This document shows positions 1 through 23,876 of a DNA stretch of 64,000 nt, piece after piece. Below the pieces are notes generated by a model that saw only the letters and a list, made by a program, of their open reading frames with translations, did no database searches and was not told the origin of the DNA. Within the stretch, counting starts at the first letter, position 1, and each line of letters begins with the position of its first letter. A program made the position numbers and the translations under genes. Origin of the DNA: Lysobacter panacisoli. Its GTDB lineage: Bacteria; Pseudomonadota; Gammaproteobacteria; Xanthomonadales; Xanthomonadaceae. The DNA lies in the NCBI RefSeq assembly GCF_009765165.1, contig NZ_VLNU01000001.1:2982247-3046246 (forward strand). Reading direction: 5' to 3'.

Positions 1-1111
1 AGACCTCCAGCGTCCTGCCGATCACGAGGCGTTCGTCGAAATGCCGGACGGCGCGTTCCCGCGCCTTCGCGCCCAGTCGCCGCACGAGGCCGCGGTCGTC
101 GTCGAGCTGCATGAGCAGCGCCGCCAGCGACGGCGCGTCGCGTGGCGGAACCTGCAGGCCATCGACGCCATGCGCGGTGACGACCTCGCGGCAGCCGGGG
201 AGGTCGGTGGTGACGATGCACAGGCCGCTCGCCGCGCCTTCGATCAGACAGCGCGGCACGCCTTCGCGGTAGTAGCTCGGCAGCGCCATCACGTCCACCG
301 TGCGCAGCAGCGACGGCATGTCGTCGACGTGGCCGAGCCACTCCACCAGTCCCTCGCGGTGCCACTGTTCGGCATCCTCGCGCGCGTACGAACTGGGATT
401 GCCCGGATCGGGCGTGCCAGCGAGGAGGAACTCGACCTTCCGTCCACGCGCCTGCAACATGCGCGCGGCTTCGACGTACTCGCCGATGCCTTTCTCGCGC
501 AGCAGGCGTGCCGCGAGCAGCACACGCAAGGGACGCTGTGCTTCGACGTCATCGCACGGCTGGAACCGTTCGGTGTCGACGCCGGAGCTGCGGATCACGC
601 GGATGCGATCGGGTGCGACGAGGCGCGAATCCGTGAGCGCGGCCGCATCGTCCGGGTTCTGCAGGATCACGCGCGAATGGCCGGCGCCAAGCGTGCCGCG
701 CATCAGCAGGCTGACGACGGGACGCAGGATGCGTGCCTTCATGCCATTGCTGGCGTACACGTAGCCCATGCCCGCGACGGCGTTGACCACCGCCGGAACG
801 CGCGCGAAGCGGGCGGCAAGCGCGCCGTATACCGCGCATTTCACCGTGAAGTTGTGGATCAGGTCGGGCGCTTCGCGACGCAGAAGCGCGGTGAGATGGC
901 GGATCGTGCCGGCCTCGCGCAGTGGATTGAGGCTGGCGCGGTCGAGCGGCAGCGTGATCCAGCGGATGCCGTGCTGGGCGAAGCGCTCACCGAACTCGCC
1001 TTCGGGCGAGATCATCAATACCTCGATCCCATGCGCCTGAAGGTGCTTCGCCGTGGAAAGACGGAAGTTGTAGAGGTACCAGTCGGTGTTCGCGAAAAAG
1101 GCAATGCGCAT
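1..1111 (-). CDS. Glycosyltransferase family 4 (partial, C-terminus outside window)
   Basis: GT-B fold sugar transferase, probably adding a residue to the lipid-linked repeat unit of the exopolysaccharide made by this locus. The frame is open from an ATG at 1111 to the window edge (370 codons, no stop). It starts MRIAFFANTDWYLYNFRLS, a typical GT4 N-terminal Rossmann strand with an FN(F)RL acceptor loop. Near residue 195 is RVLLAARLLREKGIGEYVEA, the start of the donor-binding domain, followed by LPSYYREGVPRCLIEGAASG, the conserved E-x7-E nucleotide-sugar region of GT4 enzymes. It lies downstream of the beta-helix genes, separated from them by a terminator, so it may have its own promoter. Donor and acceptor sugars cannot be told from sequence. 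Confidence 0.9.
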   Translation of the reverse strand, partial: MRIAFFANTDWYLYNFRLSTAKHLQAHGIEVLMISPEGEFGERFAQHGIRWITLPLDRASLNPLREAGTIRHLTALLRREAPDLIHNFTVKCAVYGALAARFARVPAVVNAVAGMGYVYASNGMKARILRPVVSLLMRGTLGAGHSRVILQNPDDAAALTDSRLVAPDRIRVIRSSGVDTERFQPCDDVEAQRPLRVLLAARLLREKGIGEYVEAARMLQARGRKVEFLLAGTPDPGNPSSYAREDAEQWHREGLVEWLGHVDDMPSLLRTVDVMALPSYYREGVPRCLIEGAASGLCIVTTDLPGCREVVTAHGVDGLQVPPRDAPSLAALLMQLDDDRGLVRRLGAKARERAVRHFDERLVIGRTLEV

Positions 1112-2858: not shown

Positions 2859-3938
2859 TCAGTCGAAGTAGCGATTGCTCTTGTCGACGCGGATCGACAC
2901 TGTCGATTCGCCGATGGAGACGTGGCGCTTGCCCTTGCGCGTGGCGCCGTCCGGCGTGCGACCGCGTGGACCGTTGTCGTTGAACTCGTTCCTGGCGATG
3001 GTCAGCCCGCGCGTTCCCGGACGCACGCCGACACCGCCGAGTCCGTTCAGGCGGATGCGGTTGCCCTCGATCACGCAATCGCTGGCGCCAAGGGTGAGGA
3101 TGCCGTGGCCGCGGTTGGATTCGATGGTGCAGTCGCGGACCACCGCATTGGACACGCGCTTGTAGAGCTGGATTCCCGCGCCGCGATTCCCGTGCACGGT
3201 GCAGCGCTCGATCCGAACGTCGTCGGCGATGTCGCCCGCATCGGGCTCGATGTCGATGCCGCAGCCGGGCAGGGTGCCGCCGGTGTCGGCGAAAGTGGAG
3301 TCGAACACCCGCACGCGCCGCGAGCGGCCGATGGTCAGGCCCTGGCGACGGTTGCCCACGCATTGCACGCGTTCGATCACGACATCGCGACTGGGTGCGA
3401 TGGCGCCACCGGAGTCGTTCGCGCCGCCGATGGAGATGCCGTCGCCCCAGCAGTGCGAGATGTGGATGTCGTGCACGCTCACGCCGGTGGAACCGCGGAT
3501 CATGACGCCGTGGCCCCACTCTCCGGTCGTACCCTTGTGAGCGGCGCGTTCGCCGATGATGCGCCCGCCCGAGATCTCGACCTGTTCGACGCGATGCGCG
3601 TTGAGCACGTACGCACGCTCGGCCGCGTTCGGCTTGGCCAACAGTCGCGCGCCCGAAGCGAGCGCCAGGTGCATGCGGCTGCGCAGGCGCACGCCGACGA
3701 CGGCGTCGATCAGGTAGTCGCCGGCCGGAACCTGCACCGTGCCGCCCGCATCGGGCAGCGCGTCGATGGCCTGCTGGAATGCGCGCGTGTCGTCAGTCTT
3801 GCCGTCACCGCGCGCGCCGTGTGCGCGCACTTCGATGGCCGTTCCGCCGCGCTGGCGCGCCTGTGCGAGCGCGAGCGACGGCCACGCCGCTGCGAGCAGC
3901 ATCGCTGTCGCGAATCGCCTTCGGCTGTGGTCAGGCAT
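2859..3938 (-). CDS. Tat-exported right-handed beta-helix (pectate-lyase-like) protein, copy 2
   Basis: Second exported beta-helix protein, 359 aa, paralogous to the one at 1419-2624 (compare [20 protein letters not shown] with its counterpart there). The start is placed at the ATG at 3938: the frame is open farther upstream, but MPDHSRRRFATAMLLAAAW gives a compact twin-arginine signal (SRRRFA) with a cleavage region near LALAQA. That ATG also overlaps the TGA of the upstream asparagine-synthase-like gene by 8 bases, indicating translational coupling. The Pectate_lyase_3 opening is EVRAHGARGDGKTDDTRAF. Likely acts on the exported polysaccharide; enzyme class not assignable. Confidence 0.85.
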   Translation of the reverse strand: MPDHSRRRFATAMLLAAAWPSLALAQARQRGGTAIEVRAHGARGDGKTDDTRAFQQAIDALPDAGGTVQVPAGDYLIDAVVGVRLRSRMHLALASGARLLAKPNAAERAYVLNAHRVEQVEISGGRIIGERAAHKGTTGEWGHGVMIRGSTGVSVHDIHISHCWGDGISIGGANDSGGAIAPSRDVVIERVQCVGNRRQGLTIGRSRRVRVFDSTFADTGGTLPGCGIDIEPDAGDIADDVRIERCTVHGNRGAGIQLYKRVSNAVVRDCTIESNRGHGILTLGASDCVIEGNRIRLNGLGGVGVRPGTRGLTIARNEFNDNGPRGRTPDGATRKGKRHVSIGESTVSIRVDKSNRYFD

Positions 3939-5367
3939 AGGCGCGCAGCGGTTCGGCGACGTTCCCATGCTGGGTCGTCGCATTGCTGTCGAGCCACGGC
4001 AGGACGATCGCGAGCAGATAGAAGCGCGAGGCGTGGTACTTGTTGTCCAGACGCGAACGATTGCGGTCGAGCCATCCGACCGCACCCGGCAGGAAATCGC
4101 GCGAGCGTTCCGCGAAATCGCGGACGCGGTCGAAGCGGGTTCGCGCCAGGCCGCGCACGTCGAAACGGAAGCTGCCCTTGCTGCGAACGTAGGGCAGGTC
4201 GTCGAAGCGGCTGGCGATGTGCTCGCGGATCAGCAGCTTGTTGAGCTTGGTGATCGGGTCGACCTTCTGGTAGCGCGGCACTTCGCGATGGATCCACTCG
4301 CGCAGGTCGAGATCGCAGAACGGATAGGCTGCCTTCAGCGACAATGCCGCTGTGGTGTACAGGCCCTTGGCGAACGCACCCGCGGAGCCGGCGATCGACG
4401 TCGACATGTCGCGCCATTCCCACGGGCTGGTGGCTGAACCGATCTCGTCCTTGAACAGTTCCAGCCGCTGGCGCGACGCCTGTGCGATCTCGCGGCCGAA
4501 CAGCTCGTCCACTTCGTCGTCGCCGAAGCGCGAGCCGGGGAAGACACGTTCGATCGGGTTCATGCGCAGCGTGCTGAGCAGGTAGCAGAGCTTGAAGCTG
4601 CGATCGACGCCCGGCAGTTCGGACAGTCGACCCGGTAGCGGCAGGTCGCGCGAGAGCCGACGGATCCAGTGCTGGCTGCGGCTCATCGGCGTGCCGAAGT
4701 AGCTGTCCGCGCCGAGTCCATCGATCACGCCGTCGCCGCCGTGGCCCGCGATCTCGGTGCCCAGGTCCACGCATGACAGCAAGGCGAAATCCGCGGTGAG
4801 CAGCGGCATGCGATCGACCACGGCGAGGTAGCGGTCGTACGCGCGCGCGGGATCGCACACCAGCGATTCGTGGCGCAGGCCGAGCGTGCGTGCCACGTGC
4901 GTAGCGGATGCGACCTCGTCTTCCTCGGTGCCGCCGAGATAGGTGATGCAGGTCGTGTCCGGGCGCGCATCGGCGATGGCGATGGCAAGCGTGGTCGAAT
5001 CCTTGCCGCCACTCTGCAGCAGCCACGGCGAGCGCATGTCGTGGCAACTGCGCTCGATCGCCTGACACAGCAGGCGGTGATAGCCGGCCACCCAGTCCTG
5101 TTCGGATCTCGGATGCTCGGGGACTTCGCCCGCGTTTCGGAACTTGAAGTGGAAGTGCGGCGCGGTGTGCATGTCGTCGTGCGGGCAGAAGCCGAACGTG
5201 ACGAGGCGGACACCCTCGTAGATCGAGTACGGCGGATACACGAAGGCGTTGCGCAACAGGTCCGCGACCGACACCGGATCGACCGGCGGGCGTGGCCCAC
5301 CGTTGCGCATCAGCCGCGAGAAGTCCGGCGTGCCGTAGTAAGGGGACATGGTGATCTGTGCGCGCAT
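3931..5367 (-). CDS. Asparagine-synthase-like amidotransferase lacking the glutaminase domain
   Basis: PP-loop ATP pyrophosphatase of the asparagine synthase B family, 478 aa. The ATP loop is LLQSGGKDST at residues 116-125, followed by YLGGTEEDE and a helical domain like that of AsnB. The N-terminal Ntn-type glutaminase domain (Cys-2) of AsnB is absent; residues 1-100 look unrelated. The ATG at 5367 lies 4 bp after the tyrosine-kinase stop, with GGTGA as a possible ribosome-binding site; an alternative ATG is at 5349. In a polysaccharide operon such proteins are plausible amidating enzymes for uronic acids (compare WbpS-like proteins), with ammonia or an external glutaminase as nitrogen source. 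That role is inference; peptide modification is the alternative. Confidence 0.8.
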   Translation of the reverse strand: MRAQITMSPYYGTPDFSRLMRNGGPRPPVDPVSVADLLRNAFVYPPYSIYEGVRLVTFGFCPHDDMHTAPHFHFKFRNAGEVPEHPRSEQDWVAGYHRLLCQAIERSCHDMRSPWLLQSGGKDSTTLAIAIADARPDTTCITYLGGTEEDEVASATHVARTLGLRHESLVCDPARAYDRYLAVVDRMPLLTADFALLSCVDLGTEIAGHGGDGVIDGLGADSYFGTPMSRSQHWIRRLSRDLPLPGRLSELPGVDRSFKLCYLLSTLRMNPIERVFPGSRFGDDEVDELFGREIAQASRQRLELFKDEIGSATSPWEWRDMSTSIAGSAGAFAKGLYTTAALSLKAAYPFCDLDLREWIHREVPRYQKVDPITKLNKLLIREHIASRFDDLPYVRSKGSFRFDVRGLARTRFDRVRDFAERSRDFLPGAVGWLDRNRSRLDNKYHASRFYLLAIVLPWLDSNATTQHGNVAEPLRAYA

Positions 5368-5371
5368 GGGA

Positions 5372-7636
5372 TCACCGTGCCGGGGCCGGATCACGCACCG
5401 GCTGGTAGTCGTAATAGGTGTACGCGTACTGGCCAGAGCCACGCTTCTGCACCGCGTTGAAGATCGCGCCGCGCACTTCCACGCCGTTCTGCTCGAGGCG
5501 TTGCTTCGCAAGCGCGATCTCGCGCTGCTGGTTGAGGCCCCAGCGCACGACCATCAGGCAGGTGCCGATGTGGTGGCCGATCACCGCCGCGTCGGTCACC
5601 GCCAGCACCGGCGGCGTATCGATCACCACGATGTCGTACTTCGGGGCGAGGCTGTCCAGCAGCGCGGTGAATCGCGGATGCATCAGCAGCTCGGACGGAT
5701 TCGGCGGCACCGCGCCGCGCGAGATGAACGACAGGTTGTCGGTGCCCGGCACCGTGCGCACCGCCGTCGTGGCATCGATCTGGCCCGAGATCAGCTCGGA
5801 CAGGCCATTCTCCGAACGAGTGCCCAGTGCCTGGTGCAGCGTGCCGCGACGCATGTCCGCGTCGATCAGCAGCACCCGCTGGCCAGCCTGCGCGATGGTC
5901 ACCGCGAGGTTCGCGCAGACGAAGGTCTTGCCGACACCCGGACTCGGCGCAGCGATCATCAGGATGTTGTTCTTCATCTCGAAACGGGCGAAGTGCAGGC
6001 TCGTGCGCAAGGTGCGCAGCGCCTCCATCGCAAGGTCGGACGGCGAGCGGAAGGCGAGCAGGCGTTGCTTGCCGTCGCGGCGGCGCTGGCCCGGCTGCGC
6101 CGCGATCTGCTTGCCCTTGGCGCTGAAGGGAATCGACGCATACACCGGCAGGCCGAGCAGTTCGATGTCCACCGGATCCTCGACGCCGCGGCGGAACATC
6201 TGCCGGGTCAGGACGAAAGCGACCATCAGCATCGCGCCGAGCAGCGTGCCACCGGCGATGACCAGCAGCGGCTTCGGCCACGACGGGCTGTCCATGTTGA
6301 CGTCGGCCGGGTCGATCACCCGCGCGTTGCCGACCGCGCTGGCGGCGGCGATGTTGAGCTGCTGCGCCTGGTCGAGCAGGTTCGCGTACGTCTGGTTGAT
6401 CACCTCGACATCGCGGTTCAGGCGGAACAGACCCTGCTGGGTATCGGGCAGGTTGCCGATGCGTCCGGAGATCTGGTTCTTCTTCGCTTCGAACTGGCCG
6501 ATCTGGCGCATCAGAGACTGATACACCGGATGCTCTGGCGTGTACTTGCTGGCGATGTCGGCGCGCTGCACCTGCAACTGCTGGATGCTCGTTTCCAGCG
6601 CAACGCTCTGGTCGAGCAGCGCCTTGTTCTGCATGCCGACATCCATCGTCTGGGTGCGCGACTGGAACTCGTTGAGGCGCTGCTGCGCGTCGGCGAGTTC
6701 ACGGCGCACCTTGGGCAGCTGTTCGGTCACGAACTGCAGGCGCTTGGCCGCTTCGGCCGAATTGCGCGCGACGTTCTGGCGCACGTAGGCCTGGGTGAGC
6801 TGGTCGAGCACCTGCTTGGCGCGCAGCGGGTCGGCGTTCGCGTAGGTCAACGCGATGATGCCGGAGTTGCGACCCTGCTCGGTGACCGTGATGTCGTTCT
6901 TCAGCTCCGACATGATCGCCATCGAGTTCAGCCGCTTCACGTCGAAACGCGTGCCGGGATTGGCGACCAGGCGTTCGACTTCGAGCGTGATGCCGCGGCC
7001 GTTGCTCGCGACCTGCCCGACGCGACCTTCGAGCAGCGTGTTGCCTTCCGGATCGAGTAGTTGGTAGCGGCCGCGCTCACCGGCGACGAGCTGCAGGTTG
7101 ATGCCGGTGAGCTGTTCGGGAAGATCGAAGCGACCGATGCCGATCTGCTCGCCGCCCCAACCGTAGCTGGCAAGACCGAGGAACGGCGGCGCGAGATCGC
7201 CCGCGTCCAACCGCTGCTGCGCGCGCGCGACCATGTCGCCGATCACCGGCATGCGCACCGGGCGTGCGACGGTGTCGAGGTCGAGGCGTTCGATCGCTTC
7301 ACCAAGCACGCGACGCGAGGTCAACAGCTGCGTTTCGGTCGCGGCAGGTGCGTCGACAATGGGCGGCGCCGGCGTGTTCTCGTGGTTCGACAGACCCGGC
7401 ACGGTCGGCGGGCGCGCTTCCACCTGCACGACGGCGTTGGCCTCGTACTTGGGGGTCACCAGCAGCACGTACACCGTGGCGGCGACGAAGAACGCGAGCG
7501 TGCCGACGAGGATCGCCCACTTGTTGTCGTTGAGCGTGGAGACGAGGGTCGGGATGTCTATGTCGTCATCACGGACCGCGGTCGCGGCAGGCGCGGTGTA
7601 GGCGGGGTCCGCCCGGGAAATCACGTGAGTGCTCAT
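5372..7636 (-). CDS. Wzc-type polysaccharide co-polymerase / tyrosine autokinase
   Basis: Inner-membrane tyrosine kinase controlling chain length and export of exopolysaccharide, 754 aa. A Wzz domain begins after a first membrane segment (about 40-60), a long coiled periplasmic part spans about 280-420, and a GNVR-type region precedes the second membrane segment (about 457-477). The cytoplasmic kinase has Walker A APSPGVGKT (563-571), Walker A' LLIDAD (589-594) and Walker B VVIDTPP (670-676). The C-terminus carries the expected tyrosine cluster (Y737, Y739, Y741, Y742, Y744), the autophosphorylation tail. Its cognate phosphatase is probably the gene at 10451-10885. Confidence 0.95.
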   Translation of the reverse strand: MSTHVISRADPAYTAPAATAVRDDDIDIPTLVSTLNDNKWAILVGTLAFFVAATVYVLLVTPKYEANAVVQVEARPPTVPGLSNHENTPAPPIVDAPAATETQLLTSRRVLGEAIERLDLDTVARPVRMPVIGDMVARAQQRLDAGDLAPPFLGLASYGWGGEQIGIGRFDLPEQLTGINLQLVAGERGRYQLLDPEGNTLLEGRVGQVASNGRGITLEVERLVANPGTRFDVKRLNSMAIMSELKNDITVTEQGRNSGIIALTYANADPLRAKQVLDQLTQAYVRQNVARNSAEAAKRLQFVTEQLPKVRRELADAQQRLNEFQSRTQTMDVGMQNKALLDQSVALETSIQQLQVQRADIASKYTPEHPVYQSLMRQIGQFEAKKNQISGRIGNLPDTQQGLFRLNRDVEVINQTYANLLDQAQQLNIAAASAVGNARVIDPADVNMDSPSWPKPLLVIAGGTLLGAMLMVAFVLTRQMFRRGVEDPVDIELLGLPVYASIPFSAKGKQIAAQPGQRRRDGKQRLLAFRSPSDLAMEALRTLRTSLHFARFEMKNNILMIAAPSPGVGKTFVCANLAVTIAQAGQRVLLIDADMRRGTLHQALGTRSENGLSELISGQIDATTAVRTVPGTDNLSFISRGAVPPNPSELLMHPRFTALLDSLAPKYDIVVIDTPPVLAVTDAAVIGHHIGTCLMVVRWGLNQQREIALAKQRLEQNGVEVRGAIFNAVQKRGSGQYAYTYYDYQPVRDPAPAR

Positions 7637-7763: not shown

Positions 7764-10178
7764 TCATGTGACCTCCCAGGCGTGTCGCGTTCCGGACTGG
7801 TTTGGCGAACCTGCGTCGCGCGACGGAGTCGTGGATGCATGGGCTGCGGAACGCAGGCCCGCCAAGGCATCGGCGACGCGATTGGACGCGTCGCCCGTTT
7901 GGTTGGAAGCGCCCGTCTGCGCGGAAGCGAACGGTGCGCGATTGGGTCGCCCCGCTTCAAGCAGGCGCTGCACGTCGACGGCGATCTCGTCCGCGTTTCC
8001 GCCGAGCAGGTGCACGGTCGGGCGCACGCCTTCGGGCAGGTGCAGCGGTTCCATCGCCAGCAGCGGGACGTCCATCGCGCAGGCTTCGCTGTAGAAGTGC
8101 GGCGCGATGTACGCCAGATGCGCGCGGCCGAGCAGGAACACGCCCGCGAGATAGTCCGGGGCGTCGATGCGGTGCAGGTTCGGTGTCGGTAGGCCATTGA
8201 CGGCAGTCGCGACGCAGACCACGTCGAGGTCCGGTCGCTGCGCGGCGACCTCGCATGCGGCGACCATCAGCGAGTCGGCGTGCACGTCTTCTTCGTCGCG
8301 CGGCATGACAAGCAGCAGCGGCTGTCCGTCGCGCAGGAAGGCGAAGCGTTCGGCGAAATCGCGGCCGAGGTCGCTGTCCGGGTGCAGGTCCTGCAGTGCG
8401 GAATGGAGCGTGTCGAGCGCCGCGCCGCCAGTGACGATGACGCGATTGGCGGGCACGCCCTCGGCGACGAGCTGGCGACCGGTCGACTGGTCGGGCGCGA
8501 CGTGCAGCGATGCGAGCGCGCGCGCGATGCGCCGGCCCGGATCGTCGGCGGATGTCGGCGCACCCGCACTCTGTCCACCGTCCACGCACACCACCGGGAC
8601 CTGGTGGTAGTGCGCGGCGAGCGTCGCGGCCAGCGTGGCCGGCGCATCGCCCGGCACCACCACCAGGTCCGGCTGCACCCGGGTCATCACATCCTTCATG
8701 CCGCCGAGCGCGCTGGAGGTGACCTGCACGGGATCCTCGCTCGCCGCGGGTACCGCCAGATGCACGTCGGCCGAGAGGTCGAACAGATGCAGCACCTGCG
8801 GCGTGTCCTGTTCCGCATCGACCGACACGCACACCGTGGTCTCGAAACGTTCGTCGCGTACGAGTCGCTGTGCGAGCGGCGCCATCTGCACCGCGTCCGG
8901 CGAATCGGGCAGCACGCACAATGCACGTACAAGCGTCGCCGGCTCACCGTCCGCGGCAGGTGCGGCGTCGATCAGCGATGCGGCCGAGGGCAGGGCGATG
9001 CCGGCGCGCGTGGGCATGTCGTAGTAGCGATCGTCGTCCTCGTCATCGAATCGTGCGAGCCCGGCAAGGAAGGAGATGCCGTGGTTCGTCGTGAGCGGAG
9101 CCGGTGGCGGCGTCGGCACTGGTCTGGCTTCACGCGTCGGCCAGCGCCCGCGCATGCGCATCAGCGCCTTCGGCACCCACCACACGTGCAGGGCGAGCAC
9201 CAGCACGAACGCGGCCAGGCCCAGCGACTGCGGCACGTTGCGCAACGCGAAGCCGAGCAGCAACAGCAATCCGGCGATGCCGACCATGCTGGCCAGCACG
9301 ATGCGCGGCGGCATGCCGGTGTCGCACAGCAGATGGTGCAGGTGCTGGCGATCGGCGCGGAACGGCGAGCCGCCGGAGCGGATGCGGCGGTACATCACCG
9401 CCAGCGTGTCCATCACCGGCAGCGCGACGCACCAGAGCACGTCCGGCGGCGACATGCGGCCGACGTTCGGATGGCTCATGTAGACCAGCGCCCACGCCAT
9501 CAGGAAGCCGATCAGTGTGCTGCCGGCGTCGCCCATGAACACCTTGCGTCCATCCGGCCAGCCCATGTTGACGAACAGATAGGGCACCAGCGCCGCGAAC
9601 AGAACCTGCAACATCAGCAGCACGCCCGGTGCGGACCAGGGCGCCTGGTTGAACATGCCGATCGCGACGATGCACACCATCGCCATCGACGCCGCGAGGC
9701 CGTCGATGCCATCCATCATGTTGAACGCGTTGATCAGGCCGATCACCGCCACGATCGTGAACGGGATGCCGAACAGGCCAAGATCGATGTGGCGCGTGCC
9801 GATGATCTCGCCCAGGTCGCTGACGTAGAAGCCGGACATGAAGATCACGAGGCCGCAGGCGCCGGCTTCGATCAGCAGGCGCGAGGTCACGCTGAGGTCG
9901 CTGGCGTCGTCGAGCGCACCGGCGGCGACAATCAGCACGCTGCCCGCGAGCAGGCTGGTGACGAAGCCGTCGAAGTAGCCCAGGTAGCTCAGGCCGACGA
10001 GCGTGCCGAGGAAGAAGCACAGCCCGCCGATCAGCGGGATGCTCCCGCGATGGCGCTTGCGCGCGTCGGGCCGGTCCACCAGTCCGATCTTCCTCGCCCA
10101 CGGGCGCATCGAGAAGATCGCGAATAGCGTCACGGCCAACGCGATTGCGCTGGCAGCTACCAGCTTGGGGTCCGTCAT
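7764..10178 (-). CDS. WecA-type undecaprenyl-phosphate sugar-1-phosphate transferase fused to a degenerate UDP-GlcNAc 2-epimerase-like domain
   Basis: Bifunctional-looking membrane protein, 804 aa. Residues 1-340 are a complete polyprenyl-phosphate HexNAc-1-phosphate transferase with about 11 membrane segments: DD at 90-91, NAFNMMDGIDGL at 150-161, MGDAGS at 215-220 and HLHHLL at 279-284. This part would start repeat-unit synthesis on undecaprenyl phosphate. After an acidic linker (345-415), residues 416-742 follow WecB-type UDP-GlcNAc 2-epimerases (AVQMAPL, PDLVVVPGDAPATLAA, NRVIVTGGAALDTL, then a C-terminal VPLLAM segment). Most catalytic positions are altered: no GTRPE loop, HVEAGL became CVDGGQ, GHRRES became MPRDEE, and SGG-QEE is missing. 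The ATG at 10178 has GAGGTG upstream. The second domain is probably non-catalytic or regulatory (inference). Confidence 0.88.
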   Translation of the reverse strand: MTDPKLVAASAIALAVTLFAIFSMRPWARKIGLVDRPDARKRHRGSIPLIGGLCFFLGTLVGLSYLGYFDGFVTSLLAGSVLIVAAGALDDASDLSVTSRLLIEAGACGLVIFMSGFYVSDLGEIIGTRHIDLGLFGIPFTIVAVIGLINAFNMMDGIDGLAASMAMVCIVAIGMFNQAPWSAPGVLLMLQVLFAALVPYLFVNMGWPDGRKVFMGDAGSTLIGFLMAWALVYMSHPNVGRMSPPDVLWCVALPVMDTLAVMYRRIRSGGSPFRADRQHLHHLLCDTGMPPRIVLASMVGIAGLLLLLGFALRNVPQSLGLAAFVLVLALHVWWVPKALMRMRGRWPTREARPVPTPPPAPLTTNHGISFLAGLARFDDEDDDRYYDMPTRAGIALPSAASLIDAAPAADGEPATLVRALCVLPDSPDAVQMAPLAQRLVRDERFETTVCVSVDAEQDTPQVLHLFDLSADVHLAVPAASEDPVQVTSSALGGMKDVMTRVQPDLVVVPGDAPATLAATLAAHYHQVPVVCVDGGQSAGAPTSADDPGRRIARALASLHVAPDQSTGRQLVAEGVPANRVIVTGGAALDTLHSALQDLHPDSDLGRDFAERFAFLRDGQPLLLVMPRDEEDVHADSLMVAACEVAAQRPDLDVVCVATAVNGLPTPNLHRIDAPDYLAGVFLLGRAHLAYIAPHFYSEACAMDVPLLAMEPLHLPEGVRPTVHLLGGNADEIAVDVQRLLEAGRPNRAPFASAQTGASNQTGDASNRVADALAGLRSAAHASTTPSRDAGSPNQSGTRHAWEVT

Positions 10179-10450: not shown

Positions 10451-10885
10451 TCACAGTTTCGTTTGCCATTCGCTGTTACATGTATCGAGCGAGTCGTATG
10501 TCGCATCGAAGCAGGAAATGTCGCGACCGTAAGGGTCGTCGATATCTTCGCCACCGTTCCAGTGCGAGAACATCAGCACGCGACCGCGCAGCACTGGGCA
10601 CGACGCGAGCGTCGCGGCGACCTGTCGCTGCTCCATCGCGAGCACGAGGTCGAAGCGCTGCAACAGTTCGCGCGTGGCCTGTCGGCCGATGTGCGCGGCC
10701 GCGCTCAAGCCGTGTTCGAGCAGTACCTGTTGTGCTTTCGGATCGACGGGCGAGCCCTGCATTGCGGCGAGCCCGGCGGATTCGACGACGATGTCGTCGC
10801 GACCCAGGCGGTGGCGCAGCATGGTTTCGGCCATCGGACTGCGGCAGATGTTGCCCTTGCAGATGATGAGCAGGCGAAATGTCAT
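10451..10885 (-). CDS. Low-molecular-weight protein-tyrosine phosphatase (Wzb-like)
   Basis: Cytoplasmic arsenate-reductase-fold phosphatase, 144 aa, expected to dephosphorylate the tyrosine-rich tail of the Wzc-type kinase encoded downstream and so drive the phosphorylation cycle needed for polymer export. The catalytic loop C9-KGNIC-R15 followed by SP fits CX5R(S/T), and DDPYG at 116-120 supplies the general acid (D117). Length matches the family. It is first in the minus-strand polysaccharide locus, with a 272-bp AT-rich gap before the WecA fusion, so it may be transcribed with or apart from it. The last ~15 residues (LDTCNSEWQTKL) do not resemble the usual C-terminal helix. Confidence 0.92.
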   Translation of the reverse strand: MTFRLLIICKGNICRSPMAETMLRHRLGRDDIVVESAGLAAMQGSPVDPKAQQVLLEHGLSAAAHIGRQATRELLQRFDLVLAMEQRQVAATLASCPVLRGRVLMFSHWNGGEDIDDPYGRDISCFDATYDSLDTCNSEWQTKL

Positions 10886-10960: not shown

Positions 10961-11827
10961 TCAGCCGGGCTCGTTCGGCAACGTCTGGCGTACGCGCGCG
11001 AATCCACTCCACGGCTCACGGCGCAGCAACCGCGCGCGGCGCAAGGCCTTGCGCAGATCGAATGCCGCTGGCTCGCGCACGCGGCCAAGATCGTCCCAGC
11101 TCAGCGGCATCGCCACGGGCGCGCCGGGTCGTGCGCGCAGCGACCAGCCGGTGACGCTGGTCGCGCCGCGCGCGTTACGCAGCCAGTCGATGAAGATGTG
11201 GCCCTCACGCGCCGACTTGCTCGCGGTGGCGACGAATCGCTCGGGCGATTTCGCCACCAGCGACTCGGCGAACGCATCGCTGAATGCTTTCACCTGCGTC
11301 CAGTCCGGGCCGCGCCTGATCGGCACCACCACGTGCAATCCCTTGCCGCCAGACAGTCGCAACCAGCTGCGTAGTCCGCGCGCGGCGAGTTCGTCGCGCA
11401 CCTGGCGCGCCGCGGCCTTCACTTCGTTCCAAGCGATGTCCGGTGCGGGGTCCAGGTCGAACACCAGCCGATCCGGGCTTTCGACATCATCGATGCGCGC
11501 GCCCCATACGTGGAACTCGAGCGTGTTCATCTGCACCAGTTCGAGCACGCCCTCGATGTCCTCGACGTAGAGGTAATCGCCTTCGCCTTCGAGTTCGCGC
11601 AGGCGGATCGCGTGGACGTGTTCGCCCAGCGAATCCGCGTGGTGTTTCTGGAAGAAGCAGTGGCCGTCGGCGCCATCCGGGCAGCGCACCAGCGAGAGTG
11701 GGCGCTGGACGAGTTCGGGCAACAGCCATCGCGCGACGGCGCGGTAATAGTCGGCCACTTCGCCCTTGGTGATGCCCGCGCCGGCGAACACGACGCGGTC
11801 GGGACTGGTCAGCCGGGGCGTCGTCAT
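10961..11827 (-). CDS. Stand-alone LigD-type primase-polymerase (NHEJ polymerase domain)
   Basis: Archaeo-eukaryotic primase-superfamily polymerase that fills or extends ends during non-homologous end joining, 288 aa, equivalent to the Pol domain of LigD without ligase or phosphoesterase domains. LSLVRCPDG and CFFQKHH (57-63) are signature segments; FDLDPAPD holds the metal-binding D124 and D126; SGGKGLHVVVP (159-169) is the nucleotide-binding loop; AMPLSWDDL is the usual late motif. It lies 27 bp downstream of ku on the same strand, so the two are probably co-transcribed. The window has a second Pol domain in the full-length LigD at 16183-18741. Product is often annotated as LigD. Confidence 0.92.
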   Translation of the reverse strand: MTTPRLTSPDRVVFAGAGITKGEVADYYRAVARWLLPELVQRPLSLVRCPDGADGHCFFQKHHADSLGEHVHAIRLRELEGEGDYLYVEDIEGVLELVQMNTLEFHVWGARIDDVESPDRLVFDLDPAPDIAWNEVKAAARQVRDELAARGLRSWLRLSGGKGLHVVVPIRRGPDWTQVKAFSDAFAESLVAKSPERFVATASKSAREGHIFIDWLRNARGATSVTGWSLRARPGAPVAMPLSWDDLGRVREPAAFDLRKALRRARLLRREPWSGFARVRQTLPNEPG

Positions 11828-11854
11828 GCGTCGGCGCGGCGATGATCGTGCGGA

Positions 11855-12751
11855 TCAGGCCGACTTGCGTCCGGTGCGTTTGCGCGCGGTCGTCGTGGTC
11901 GTCTTCTTCGCGGGTGCCTTCTTGGCGGCCTTCTTGGCCGGCGGAGGCTTGCCTCCCTTCTTCTCCAGGCTGCGCTTGAGCAGGTCGGCGAAGTCGATGA
12001 CGTTGGTCGCGGCGTTTTCCGGCAACGATTCCTCGGCAGCCGGCTTGCGCACCACATGCTTGGACTTGACCCGATCCTCGATCACCTTCGTCAGGCGGTC
12101 GCGGAAATCGTCCTTGTAGTCCGCCGGATTCCATTCCGAGCTCATCGACTCGATCAGCTGCTTGGCCATGTCGACTTCGCGCGCGGTGATCTTCCACTTC
12201 TCCATGCCGCCTTCGGGCAGCTTGTATTCCTCCGGATCGACCAGCTCCTGGGCGAAGCGCAGGATCAGCAGCAGCAGCGCGTCGTCGCGCGCGACGACCG
12301 CGGCGAGGTATTCGCGCGTGCGGATGACGACGCGGCCGACGCCGGCCTGGCCGGTGCGCTTGAGCACTTCACGCAACAGCACGTAGCCCTTCTCGGCCTT
12401 CTTGCCCGGTTCGAGCACGTAGGGTTTCTCGAAGTATTCCGGCCCGATCGACTCCAGCGGCACGAAGGTGTCGATGTCGACCGTTTCCTTGTGGTCGGGC
12501 GAGGCGGCGGCGATGTCCGACTCCTCCAGTACGACGTAGCTGCCCTTGTCGTACTCGAACGCCTTGACGATTTCCTTCCACGGCACTTCCTCGCCGGTCT
12601 CGGCGTTGACGCGCTCGTAGCGGATCGGGGCGTTGTTGCGACTGTCGAGCATGCGGAACGACAGATCGACGCGACGCTCGCCGGTCATCAGCTTGATGGG
12701 GATGTTGAGCAGACCGAACGACAGCGTTCCGGTCCAGATGGGGCGGGCCAT
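11855..12751 (-). CDS. ku: Ku, DNA end-binding protein of bacterial NHEJ
   Basis: Homodimeric ring protein that binds double-strand break ends and recruits LigD. The 298-aa protein begins MARPIWTGTLSFGLLNIPIK, diagnostic for bacterial Ku, and keeps ...RYERVNAETGEEVPWKEIVKA and the EEYKLPEG region of the core. The last ~45 residues are a Lys/Ala/Thr-rich tail (PPAKKAAKKAPAKK...), typical of Ku proteins with an extra non-specific DNA-binding tail. The ATG at 12751 is followed downstream by the stand-alone polymerase gene with a 27-bp gap. Confidence 0.97.
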   Translation of the reverse strand: MARPIWTGTLSFGLLNIPIKLMTGERRVDLSFRMLDSRNNAPIRYERVNAETGEEVPWKEIVKAFEYDKGSYVVLEESDIAAASPDHKETVDIDTFVPLESIGPEYFEKPYVLEPGKKAEKGYVLLREVLKRTGQAGVGRVVIRTREYLAAVVARDDALLLLILRFAQELVDPEEYKLPEGGMEKWKITAREVDMAKQLIESMSSEWNPADYKDDFRDRLTKVIEDRVKSKHVVRKPAAEESLPENAATNVIDFADLLKRSLEKKGGKPPPAKKAAKKAPAKKTTTTTARKRTGRKSA

Positions 12752-16182: not shown

Positions 16183-18741
16183 TCATTCCGCACCGGCGAA
16201 GCTCGCCAGGTTCTGCCTGAGTTTTGTCATGCCGGCCCACGGATCCTTGCGCCGTCGCTTCAGGCGCTCGGGAACATCCGCGAGGGTGAAGGCGTCGCCG
16301 CGCTTGAGCGCGCCCAGTTCGTTCCACGCCAGAGGCATCGCCACCGGAGCGCCCGGACGTGCGCGCAACGAGTATGAGGCCACGGCGGTCGCACCCCGGC
16401 CGTTGCGCAGGTAGTCGACGTAGATGCGCTTGTTGCGCAGCCGCTTGCTCGCGACCGAGAGGAAGCGATCGGGCTCGGACTGCGCCATCACTTCCGCGAA
16501 GCTCTGCGCGAACCGCTTGACCAGTGTCCACTCGTCTACAGGGGCCAACGGCACCACCACATGCAGGCCCTTGCCGCCGGTGGTGCGCAGGAAGGATTCC
16601 AGTCCGATCTCGTCCAGTCGTCGGCGCACGTCGAGCGCGGCGCGCTTCACTTCCGCGAACGGAACATCGGGGCCGGGATCGAGATCGAACACCACGCGGT
16701 CGGCGCGATCGGGATCGTCCGCGTGCGCACCCCAAGGGTGGAATTCCAGTGCGTTGAACTGCACCAGTTCCATCAGCGCGGCGGCATCGTCGACGACGAG
16801 GTAGTTGGCATTGTTGCCGGTCTCTTCCTTCAGCCGAACGAAGCGCACCAGCTCCATGCCGGGCGTGTGGTGTTTTTGAAAGAAGCACGCGTTGGCGGTG
16901 CCGGATGGACAGCGGATGATCGACAGCGGCCGTCCGGCGATTTCCGGCAGCAGGTGGTCCATCACCGCGGTGTAGTAGTTGGCGACGTCGAGCTTGGTGT
17001 AGCCGTCGTCGGGATAGAGCACCTTGGTAGGGCTGCTGAGTTTCGGCGGCGTGCGCGCGATTGGCTTGTTCAATCGGGGCGCCGTCTTCTTCGTCGCCTT
17101 GCCGCGCGTCGTGGCCGCATTCGCCTTCGTCGCGCCGCGCGATCCGCTGTCGCTGTCGCGCAGGTCATCGACCGATTTATCGTCGCGCACCGCCTTCAGC
17201 GACGGCTGGCGCAGCAGTCCCTGTCCGCCGACGCCGCGGAAGTTCACCTCGACCACGAAGCGCGGATCGAACCACTGCGCGCTGCGCAGGTCGGTGTCGT
17301 TCTCCGGCACGAACACGGTCGGTTCCTTGCGGCCGGCGCGACCGATGCGGCGGGTGAGTTGCTTCAACAGTTCGTCGGAAAAGCCACTGCCGACGCGGCC
17401 GACATAGCGCCAGCCGTGCTCTCGGTCGGGCGTGGCGAGCAGCAGCGAACCGAAGCCGCTGCGACTGCCCTTGGGCGCGGTATACCCGACGACGGCGTAT
17501 TCGTCGCCGTGCAGCGCCTTGGTCTTGCGCCAGTCGTCGCCGCGGCCGGGATGGTAAGGACGGTCCGCGCGCTTGGAGATGATGCCTTCGAAATCCTGCT
17601 GGCTGGCCAGCGCGAATGCCTCCTCGCCGTCGCCGACCGCGTGCGAGCTGTATGACAGATGGCGCGTGCCGTCGCCGAGCACGTCCTGCAGCAGCGCCTT
17701 GCGTTCGACGAGTGGCGCGTCGGCGATGTCGATGCCGTCGATGTGGAGCAGGTCGAAGAGCGCATAAGAGAGCGAGCCCATCTTCTCGCCCGACAGCGTG
17801 GCCTGCAGCAGGTTGAAATCCGCGCGCTTGCCGGTGCCGGCGATCAGCTCGCCGTCGAGTGCCGCCGATTGCAGGCCGAGGGCTTCGATCGCGGCGGTGA
17901 TCTCCGGCACCTTGGCGGTCCAGTCCAGCGCGTTGCGCGACCACAGCCGCGCCTTGCCCTTCGCGACCGTCGCGACGATGCGGTAGCCGTCCCACTTGAT
18001 CTCGTGCAGCCACTGTTCGCCCTGCGGTGGCGCATCGCCCAGGCGCGCAAGCTGCGGCGCGAAGAACTCCGTCGGCGCGGCGGCCTTGCGCGCGCCAGGC
18101 AGCTTTGCCGCACGTTTCGCCCAGTCGCGCTTCTTCGTTCCGGCCAGCACGGGCACGCCGGTGCGCGACTTGCGCACGGCCTTGCCGCGACCGGCGCGTT
18201 TCGCGTCTTCTTCTGGAGGCGGCGTGACATCGGCGAGTAGGTCGTCGGCCTCCAGCGTGCCGGCATATTCGTCGCGATCCTTGAACAGCAGCCACTGCGG
18301 CTGGCGCGCGGCCTTGCCCGAGCGCACCAGGTGCCAGCCGCCCTTGAGCTTGTCGCCGAACAGTTCGAAATGCAGGTGGCCCTTGGCGAGTTGCGCTTCG
18401 GGATCGTGTTCGGTCGACCAGACGCCGTGGTCGAACTGCGCGACGTGGCCACCGCCGTAATGGCCCTTCGGGATTTCGCCTTCGAAGCCCGCGTAATCGA
18501 CCGGATGGTCCTCGACTTCCACCGCCATGCGCTTGACCGTCGGGTCGTAGCTCGGACCTTTCGGCACCGCCCAGCTCTTGAGCGCGTCGCCGATTTGCAG
18601 ACGGAAGTCGTAATGGCGACGGCTGGCGTGATGCAGCTGCACGATGAAGATCGCGCGCTTGCCCTGCGGCAGGCGCTTGCCGGGCTCCGGTTCGCGGGTG
18701 CCGGAAAATTGACGCTTGCGGCGGTATTCGGCGAGGCTCAT
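16183..18741 (-). CDS. ligD: Multidomain NHEJ DNA ligase LigD (phosphoesterase-ligase-polymerase)
   Basis: ATP-dependent ligase for Ku-mediated end joining, 852 aa. The order is 3'-phosphoesterase (about 30-175; LHHASRRHYDFRL and EGEIPKGHYGGG), ATP ligase (about 225-535; nucleotidyl-lysine K249 in EIKWDGYR, then OB fold with FVVEVNFRGV), and primase-like polymerase (about 570-850; FDLDPGPD metal site, TTGGKGLHVVVP). This is the Pseudomonas-type order PE-Lig-Pol. A basic linker rich in Arg/Lys/Ala precedes the Pol domain. Start at ATG 18741 because MSLAEYRRKRQFSGT is the family N-terminus; the frame is open upstream. ku and the extra Pol gene lie 3.4 kb downstream on the same strand. Confidence 0.97.
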   Translation of the reverse strand: MSLAEYRRKRQFSGTREPEPGKRLPQGKRAIFIVQLHHASRRHYDFRLQIGDALKSWAVPKGPSYDPTVKRMAVEVEDHPVDYAGFEGEIPKGHYGGGHVAQFDHGVWSTEHDPEAQLAKGHLHFELFGDKLKGGWHLVRSGKAARQPQWLLFKDRDEYAGTLEADDLLADVTPPPEEDAKRAGRGKAVRKSRTGVPVLAGTKKRDWAKRAAKLPGARKAAAPTEFFAPQLARLGDAPPQGEQWLHEIKWDGYRIVATVAKGKARLWSRNALDWTAKVPEITAAIEALGLQSAALDGELIAGTGKRADFNLLQATLSGEKMGSLSYALFDLLHIDGIDIADAPLVERKALLQDVLGDGTRHLSYSSHAVGDGEEAFALASQQDFEGIISKRADRPYHPGRGDDWRKTKALHGDEYAVVGYTAPKGSRSGFGSLLLATPDREHGWRYVGRVGSGFSDELLKQLTRRIGRAGRKEPTVFVPENDTDLRSAQWFDPRFVVEVNFRGVGGQGLLRQPSLKAVRDDKSVDDLRDSDSGSRGATKANAATTRGKATKKTAPRLNKPIARTPPKLSSPTKVLYPDDGYTKLDVANYYTAVMDHLLPEIAGRPLSIIRCPSGTANACFFQKHHTPGMELVRFVRLKEETGNNANYLVVDDAAALMELVQFNALEFHPWGAHADDPDRADRVVFDLDPGPDVPFAEVKRAALDVRRRLDEIGLESFLRTTGGKGLHVVVPLAPVDEWTLVKRFAQSFAEVMAQSEPDRFLSVASKRLRNKRIYVDYLRNGRGATAVASYSLRARPGAPVAMPLAWNELGALKRGDAFTLADVPERLKRRRKDPWAGMTKLRQNLASFAGAE

Positions 18742-18902
18742 TGGCACGACGCGCGGAGCAGGGGGCTCCACCATCCGACGGAGGCGGTGGACGCGATGCG
18801 AAAGCCGCGACGGCGATAGCACTCTACGCGCGTGTCACACGATTGGCCTGCCCGGATGGCGTAACGCATGCCATCATTCGACCCTCGCAAGGGGGAATGC
18901 GC

Positions 18903-22935: not shown

Positions 22936-23153
22936 GGGATGTGCTCCGTAAGCGTGAAATCCGGTAATTGATCACGCAGATTCCGTGCCATACGTCGCGA
23001 CGGGCTTCCGGCTGGAGCAGGGTGACGCGACCGGTCACACCTGGTCGCTGCGGGTTGGGTCGACTGACGCGACGGGTCGCCCGGTCCGATCACTTGGCAT
23101 GAATGTCGCGCGTGTTATCCCGACCTCACCCCCGATTGCCCAGGAGTCCAGGC

Positions 23154-23876
23154 ATGGCGATGAGGAAGGCCGGCAAGACCACCGCCCGCAAGTCCACCGC
23201 GAAGAAGGCCGCGGCCCGCAAGACCGCGAAGAAGGCCGTGAAGAAGGCCGCCAAGAAGTCGGCCCGCAAGGCACCGGCGAAGAAGGTGGCGAAGAAGACC
23301 GCGAGCAAGGCCGCGAAGAAGACCACGGCTCGCAAGGTCGCGGCGAAGAAGGCCACGAAGAAGACCACGGCGCGCAAGACCGCCGCGAAGAAAGCGACCC
23401 GCAAGGTCGCGAAGAAGGCCGTCGCCAAGAAGGCGGTGAAGAAGGTCGTGCGCAAGGCCGCGTCGAAGAAGGCCGTTCGCAAGACCGCGAAGAAGACCAC
23501 CGCCCGCACCGGAACCGCCCGCAAGACCGCGGCGAAGCGGACCGCATCCAAGGCCACCGCGCGCAAGGCGACGGGTCGCAAGACGACGACTGCCGCCCGC
23601 AAGCGCACTCGCACCGCGAAGCCCAGGATCACCCCCGAGCAGGCCCTGGCCAACACGCTCGAACTGCTCGCCGCCAAGCACGAGCGCGACCATCAGCCGC
23701 AACCGTGGCAGCAGCTCGATCCGCAGCAGACCCACGCGCCCAAGCCGGGCTTCCAGTCCGACAGCGCCTCGGCGAAGGCCAACGAGCTGCACGCGGCCGA
23801 AACCCGGATGCAGGCCATCCAGGGCCACATGGGCAGCCAGGACCGGCGCAACCAGGGCAAGCGCGATGCGCGCTGA
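23154..23876 (+). CDS. Histone H1-like Lys/Ala-rich DNA-binding protein (AlgP/HC1-like)
   Basis: 240-aa strongly basic protein. Residues 1-155 are low-complexity tandem variations on KKAAARKTAKKA and KKTTARK; the C-terminal part (about 160-240) is different, with PRITPEQALANTLELLAAKH and a Gln/His-rich tail. Such tails coat DNA non-specifically, as in Pseudomonas AlgP and chlamydial HC1. AGGAG at 23142-23146 is well placed for ATG 23154. The repetitive GC-rich codons create several long false frames on both strands here. The Lys tail of Ku in this window has similar composition. Confidence 0.88.
   Translation: MAMRKAGKTTARKSTAKKAAARKTAKKAVKKAAKKSARKAPAKKVAKKTASKAAKKTTARKVAAKKATKKTTARKTAAKKATRKVAKKAVAKKAVKKVVRKAASKKAVRKTAKKTTARTGTARKTAAKRTASKATARKATGRKTTTAARKRTRTAKPRITPEQALANTLELLAAKHERDHQPQPWQQLDPQQTHAPKPGFQSDSASAKANELHAAETRMQAIQGHMGSQDRRNQGKRDAR

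Follow-up and report, generated by a model that had tools for sequence, protein, structure and literature searches.

A WecA-type initiating transferase fused to a degenerate WecB-like domain in a polysaccharide cluster of Lysobacter

In Lysobacter panacisoli, a membrane transferase of the WecA type continues into a second domain that resembles the epimerase WecB. Is this tail still an epimerase, where does it come from and what may it do on an initiating transferase? The gene lies on the minus strand of the window, the whole stretch of 64,000 nucleotides that was analysed. It encodes 804 amino acids plus a stop codon and has no internal stop; the initial annotation was correct in its coordinates and its single chain. 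The Pfam scan of the protein gave only PF00953 and PF02350 over cut-off. Chance resemblance and a frameshift or sequencing artefact were ruled out by the E-values, the fold and 172 protein rows that share this architecture, obtained from two protein searches and translations. The gene is built as follows:

7764..10178, minus: fusion gene of 804 aa, WecA-type transferase, linker and degenerate WecB-like domain
9153..10178, minus: residues 1-342, WecA-type polytopic GlcNAc-1-P transferase with intact catalytic residues
8931..9152, minus: residues 343-416, linker, mostly disordered in the predicted model (pLDDT <50 over 352-402 and 404-410)
8427..8930, minus: residues 417-584, pseudo-epimerase N-lobe, which relatives retain
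7908..8426, minus: residues 585-757, C-lobe, under relaxed constraint in the window's genus and missing from four lineages
7857..7907, minus: residues 758-774, terminal helix, kept even in forms without the C-lobe

The transferase half matches PF00953 with 100.2 bits (cut-off 27). The residues D90, D91, D156, D159 and H279, whose replacement impairs E. coli WecA (excerpt of PMC5222938), are all present in the window protein and in 209/209 aligned fusion rows. Score and residues point to a polyprenyl-phosphate GlcNAc-1-phosphate transferase, which bears out the earlier reading of an intact WecA-type half. The WecA half looks active. TIGR02380, the NCBI exception model for WecA of the enterobacterial common antigen (ECA), gave 268.4 bits (E 9e-80), short of the curated 326.05-bit cut-off. 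Judged by these profiles, the half is WecA-type, yet outside the ECA isoform model. The window genome has a further WecA-like transferase frame of 323 aa (L084, G000:C1:3466006-3466419), adjoining a TPR-protein frame (named by eye). Because of this frame, the fusion is perhaps not the sole initiating enzyme.

The WecB-like half scores 102.7 bits against PF02350 (cut-off 30.6), and its best sequence match in the PDB is 3dzc, the WecB of Vibrio cholerae (E 1.8e-40). Structure prediction and comparison gave a WecB-like fold for about residues 417-778. The initial annotation had proposed this fold and had named a lack of fold similarity as the finding that would overturn its idea; the predicted structure has the fold. 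Homology and the GT-B fold are shared with WecB; catalytic residues, the TIGR00236 score and allosteric residues are not. This NCBI equivalog model was matched with 113 bits (cut-off 210.15), and none of six active-site motifs of WecB occurs in the window protein. Residue roles were taken from PMC11464976 (excerpt) and transferred by alignment; R313 was added on the strength of the TERPE motif, outside the table of that paper. At E. coli WecB R10, K15, D95, E117 and E131, the window protein reads S, Q, D, D and D. At R135, H213, S290, E296 and R313, it has R, R, a proline or gap, E (E698 of the window protein) and a gap. Three of the ten positions are identical (D95, R135 and E296), E117 and E131 are changed from E to D, and R10, K15, H213, S290 and R313 are lost. 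The claim that the catalytic positions are mostly altered holds. The allosteric UDP-GlcNAc site described in the same excerpt, mapped to E. coli numbering by ourselves, is changed at 5/6 mapped positions (Q38 to D, H39 to A, Q65 to E, R214 to D and H246 to T); E41 to Q is within the normal range. On these residues, the window's WecB-like domain is almost certainly no epimerase, and sequence gives good support to the core idea that the initiating transferase carries a dead epimerase.

A first protein search found 286 relatives among 7996 scored candidates. All of the best 120 have both Pfam domains; those with names belong to Lysobacter, Luteimonas and Pseudoxanthomonas. A second search with an intact fusion as query yielded 1333 relatives; some of the best 120 are solo WecB or other fusions. 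The clade's fusion is encoded in 37/197 family genomes, intact in 7 and degenerate or short in 30. With these genomes and at least 120 relatives with both domains, the proposed architecture search showed that the WecA-WecB fusion is spread within the family.

The ten epimerase residues were scored over 209 fusion rows, which combine the 172 protein rows with 37 genome frames and so count some genes twice. All ten residues are present in 27 rows and at most seven in the other 182, with a clear gap between. The classes are 27 intact, 157 full-length degenerate (P0170 wrongly included) and 25 short rows, the latter with the cut records G024 and P0018 and, wrongly included, the cut intact fusion P0139. 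Eleven protein rows lacking the motif used for splitting, among them the real fusion P0017, stand outside these counts. Statements on short forms refer to 10 dereplicated rows. Each of the six active-site motifs is found in 27/27 intact rows; in the other 182, the only carriers are P0139 and P0170. The latter stems from a 2-kb contig. Its WecA half groups with E. coli, its WecB N-lobe residues are missing from the alignment and its C-lobe residues are intact; it is probably an odd or chimeric record.

In the 157 degenerate rows, R10 is kept by 0, R313 by 4, H213 by 12 (still His, including three genomes of the window's genus), K15 by 20, E131 by 27, S290 by 66, E117 by 84, D95 by 101, E296 by 138 and R135 by 151. 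The mostly kept E296 and R135, together with D95 and the occasional H213, hint at residual ligand binding. The C-lobe is missing from four lineages. These losses spare the terminal helix; the chain is not simply ended early. The N-lobe is present in 30/30 degenerate-or-short genomes of 11 genera, with the G024 copy partly cut by a contig end. A C-terminal AGSP-like tail was rejected as a general feature (25/157 degenerate, 14/25 short and 0/27 intact rows).

Intact fusions (P0121-P0138, P0140; L049-L053, L055, L057) include named members of Lysobacter, such as L. enzymogenes, and Luteimonas aquatica. They share with the window the architecture, the clade and a cluster with Wzc and a tyrosine phosphatase. 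The sister clade with a fully intact WecB half in the same fusion is new in comparison with the initial annotation. Given this clade, the dead domain of the window is most likely descended from a bifunctional WecA-WecB enzyme. In the WecB-domain tree, the stem branch is 0.69 and the end branches are long. P0170, P0139, P0158 and P0141 were left out before trees, and L145 was omitted once and later restored; the first WecA and WecB trees still contained some rows later left out. Of ten family solo WecA stretches taken for the tree, six were usable. P0141 (748 aa) is a second intact WecA-WecB fusion that sits on a very long branch outside the clade and is apparently independent. Precomputed Pfam annotations of P0159 and P0178 show other WecB fusions (UDP-sugar dehydrogenase domains with Epimerase_2; Wzz with Epimerase_2). 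Some of the long frames with WecB matches were checked for other, unrelated fusions.

The window's fusion is part of a polysaccharide cluster with all genes on the minus strand. The order is tyrosine phosphatase, fusion, Wzc kinase, asparagine-synthase-like protein, two beta-helix proteins, glycosyltransferase, Wzx, pyruvyl transferase, EpsG-type protein, DUF218 and a Wza-like protein (the last by eye). The neighbours are:

10451..10885, minus: low-molecular-weight tyrosine phosphatase (Wzb-like), upstream of the fusion; PF01451 113.7 bits
5372..7636, minus: tyrosine autokinase / chain-length protein of the Wzc type, immediately downstream of the fusion; WZC_N, GNVR and Wzz domains
3931..5451, minus: asparagine-synthase-like protein; PF00733 51.6 bits
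1419..4085, minus: two right-handed beta-helix proteins of the polysaccharide cluster; PF13229 and synteny
1..1111, minus: cluster glycosyltransferase, truncated by the start of the window; further cluster genes continue leftward

The Wzc-type protein exceeds the TIGR01007 cut-off and scores 674.8 bits against PRK11519, below cut-off. In the asparagine-synthase-like protein, PF00733 alone is over cut-off and the glutaminase domain was not matched; the protein may possibly catalyse an amide-forming step on the polymer. Its gene (E <= 1e-60) occurs in 30/197 genomes, the same 30 that have a degenerate or short fusion, and in 0/7 with an intact one. Several relatives have second copies. Among 29 degenerate or short relatives with examined surroundings, wzc is directly downstream in 28, all but G024, which lies at a contig end. 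The phosphatase was located upstream in 27, with no match for G020 and G099. The query GT2, a rough stretch interrupted by three stops, was left out of this comparison. The shared gene order and the co-occurring asparagine-synthase-like gene make this one conserved cluster type, in which every genome keeps the N-lobe. The gene order is compatible with a tethering of the fusion to Wzc. Genes for a LigD-type polymerase, Ku and a large LigD-like ligase (10961-12751 and 16183-18822, minus; named by eye) adjoin the cluster. A Lys/Ala-rich low-complexity protein at 23103-23876 (plus) resembles, by eye, histone-H1-like/AlgP-type repeats.

The intact fusions differ from the window not only in their ten intact epimerase residues. 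WecC is encoded directly downstream on the same strand in 7/7 genomes (PRK11064 over cut-off in three tested), and wzc and the phosphatase are both upstream in 5/5 examined, with wzc not downstream as in the window. A WecC of at least 53% identity was found in 5/30 degenerate or short genomes, and all five also encode a separate WecB over the TIGR00236 cut-off. Such a WecB is present in 10/30 and absent from 20; G099 has a further match below cut-off. The window genome was searched for wecC and another wecB, and neither was found. A second PF02350 place in this genome (26 bits, below cut-off) was rejected as an epimerase; by eye, it is a GT-B, CDP-glycerol-transferase-like protein. This distribution suggests that the chemistry once served by the epimerase seems lost or supplied elsewhere.

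Constraint was measured as pairwise dN/dS (NG86, crude for GC-rich genes and with some pairs being one strain under two handles). In the window's genus, the values for WecA are 0.01-0.22 and those for the N-lobe 0.05-0.25, compared with 0.20-0.62 in the C-lobe and 0.17-0.55 in the linker. The WecB half of intact fusions is under stronger constraint than the WecA half (0.03-0.25 vs 0.10-0.54). The lobe order is reversed in genus g40 (C-lobe 0.10-0.18, N-lobe 0.18-0.46), and its more conserved C-lobe argues against one universal role of the N-lobe. The loops lining the active site, in segments picked by ourselves, are the most conserved in working enzymes (0.32 bits) and the most variable in degenerate ones (2.50); the rest changes from 1.06 to 1.79 bits.

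These observations can be arranged into an evolutionary course. The WecA-WecB enzyme would have arisen once in the clade by gene fusion inside an ECA-like gene set, as the single clade and the intact sister clade beside wecC suggest, and may have made UDP-ManNAc beside the membrane. On one branch, the ManNAc/ManNAcA pathway would have been lost from the cluster, in line with the window genome without wecC and another wecB. The epimerase active site would then have decayed in the ancestor of one clade, which the tree supports; single residues were maybe lost at different times. The domain would have been kept as a non-catalytic accessory part of the transferase that initiates synthesis in a Wzx/Wzy exopolysaccharide cluster (N-lobe in 30/30 genomes, dN/dS below 1). 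The retained unit of N-lobe and terminal helix may dimerise WecA or dock cytosolic partners such as the Wzc kinase and the phosphatase. We regard the whole course, from single fusion over pathway loss and decay to retention for dimerisation or docking, as slightly favoured. Against it, the ten catalytic positions are no more variable than other formerly conserved sites (median 1.54 vs 2.17 bits, p 0.76), and adding the allosteric positions revealed no excess variability (p 0.39).

For the window's own domain, our analysis gives dimerisation or docking an even chance. In human GNE, the N domain forms the dimer via helices 3-5, and this dimer is described as resembling the one of the non-hydrolysing enzyme (excerpt of PMC4793188); by this likeness, N-lobe and terminal helix may serve WecA as a dimerisation or docking unit. 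For another initiating transferase, activation by a response regulator contacting its DUF has been proposed, partly from models (excerpt of PMC12802240), and in S. aureus, the initiating transferase is stimulated by the capsule kinase (excerpt of PMC6441080). Dimers of MraY-type transferases reportedly form without accessory domains (excerpt of PMC10942596), so a tail is not generally required for dimerisation.

The initial annotation proposed UDP-HexNAc sensing or tethering to Wzc-type machinery. In the sensor reading, the GT-B cleft of full-length forms would still take up UDP or a UDP-sugar and give feedback on WecA, as in WbaP, whose cytosolic DUF makes most dimer contacts, is reported to bind uridine nucleotides and is proposed to sense them and modulate the transferase (excerpt of PMC10942596). 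With the retained fold and the mostly kept E296 and R135, full-length forms may have residual nucleotide binding. The near or complete loss of R10, R313 and H213, the mostly altered allosteric positions, the relaxed C-lobe in the window's genus and its absence from four lineages weaken the idea. We consider it unlikely, and sensing can hardly be the shared function of short forms.

A decaying relic, tolerated, at most stabilising the chain and being lost, would agree with the relaxed C-lobe and linker, repeated C-lobe losses, the 0.69 stem and the long end branches. It is quite unlikely in view of the N-lobe, which is found in all 30 genomes of 11 genera (G024 cut by the contig end) and is constrained in the window's genus, and of losses that spare the terminal helix rather than shortening the chain from its end.

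The C-lobe is the donor-binding lobe in GT-B enzymes. Its absence from four lineages and the high variability of formerly conserved loops in both lobes make it very improbable that the GT-B domain is now a glycosyltransferase or other sugar-nucleotide enzyme acting on the product of WecA. Such a function could draw on the fold, a weak PF13439 glycosyltransferase match (18.6 bits, cut-off 28.5) and the acidic trio D511/D533/D545 (E. coli D95, E117 and E131), which reads Asp-Asp-Asp in the window as well as in several short forms lacking the C-lobe. A working or slow epimerase in a simple bifunctional enzyme, for which the intact fusions (27/209 rows), D95 and the aspartates at E117 and E131 might speak, is ruled out for the window for practical purposes by its five changed residues, the missing wecC and P. 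alvei MnaA E135A, the equivalent of E131, which alone abolished measurable kinetics (excerpt of PMC11464976).

The accessory role in dimerisation or docking has a precedent in the WbaP-type large monotopic phosphoglycosyl transferases, which likewise combine an initiating transferase with a non-catalytic cytosolic domain. Transferase superfamily and domain are unrelated to those of the fusion, and the monotopic core and PF13727 were not found in its Pfam scan. The precedent is one of function, not kinship. Polytopic enzymes are listed as 'PGT only' in a table of PMC10942596 (excerpt); the fusion suggests that polytopic initiating transferases can also bear an accessory cytosolic domain. Tentatively, a metabolic enzyme whose pathway was lost may have been domesticated as a non-catalytic module that controls the first membrane step in exopolysaccharide synthesis, and may have been pared repeatedly to a half-epimerase of N-lobe and terminal helix, which would hold the polytopic transferase as a dimer or link it to the Wzc kinase machinery. 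This would be a second, independent invention of the WbaP DUF role.

In E. coli, WecA and the active enzyme WecB are separate proteins of the ECA operon, in the order wecA-wzzE-wecB-wecC. The WecA half of the fusion keeps the checked residues, and the WecB half shares fold and descent. Human GNE is also a fusion with an epimerase domain dimerising via its N domain (excerpt of PMC4793188); it differs in being hydrolysing, active and fused to another partner. Within open-licence papers, the literature search found neither a WecA-WecB fusion nor a pseudo-epimerase on an initiating transferase, in agreement with the initial annotation, which knew of no described fusion. Solo genes and intact, degenerate and trimmed fusions form a series for how an enzyme may turn into a scaffold, and living relatives represent its stages. 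Several public records name degenerate proteins 'UDP-N-acetylglucosamine 2-epimerase', which would wrongly imply UDP-ManNAc synthesis. The TIGR00236 cut-off is even exceeded by two degenerate fusions, G002 and G074.
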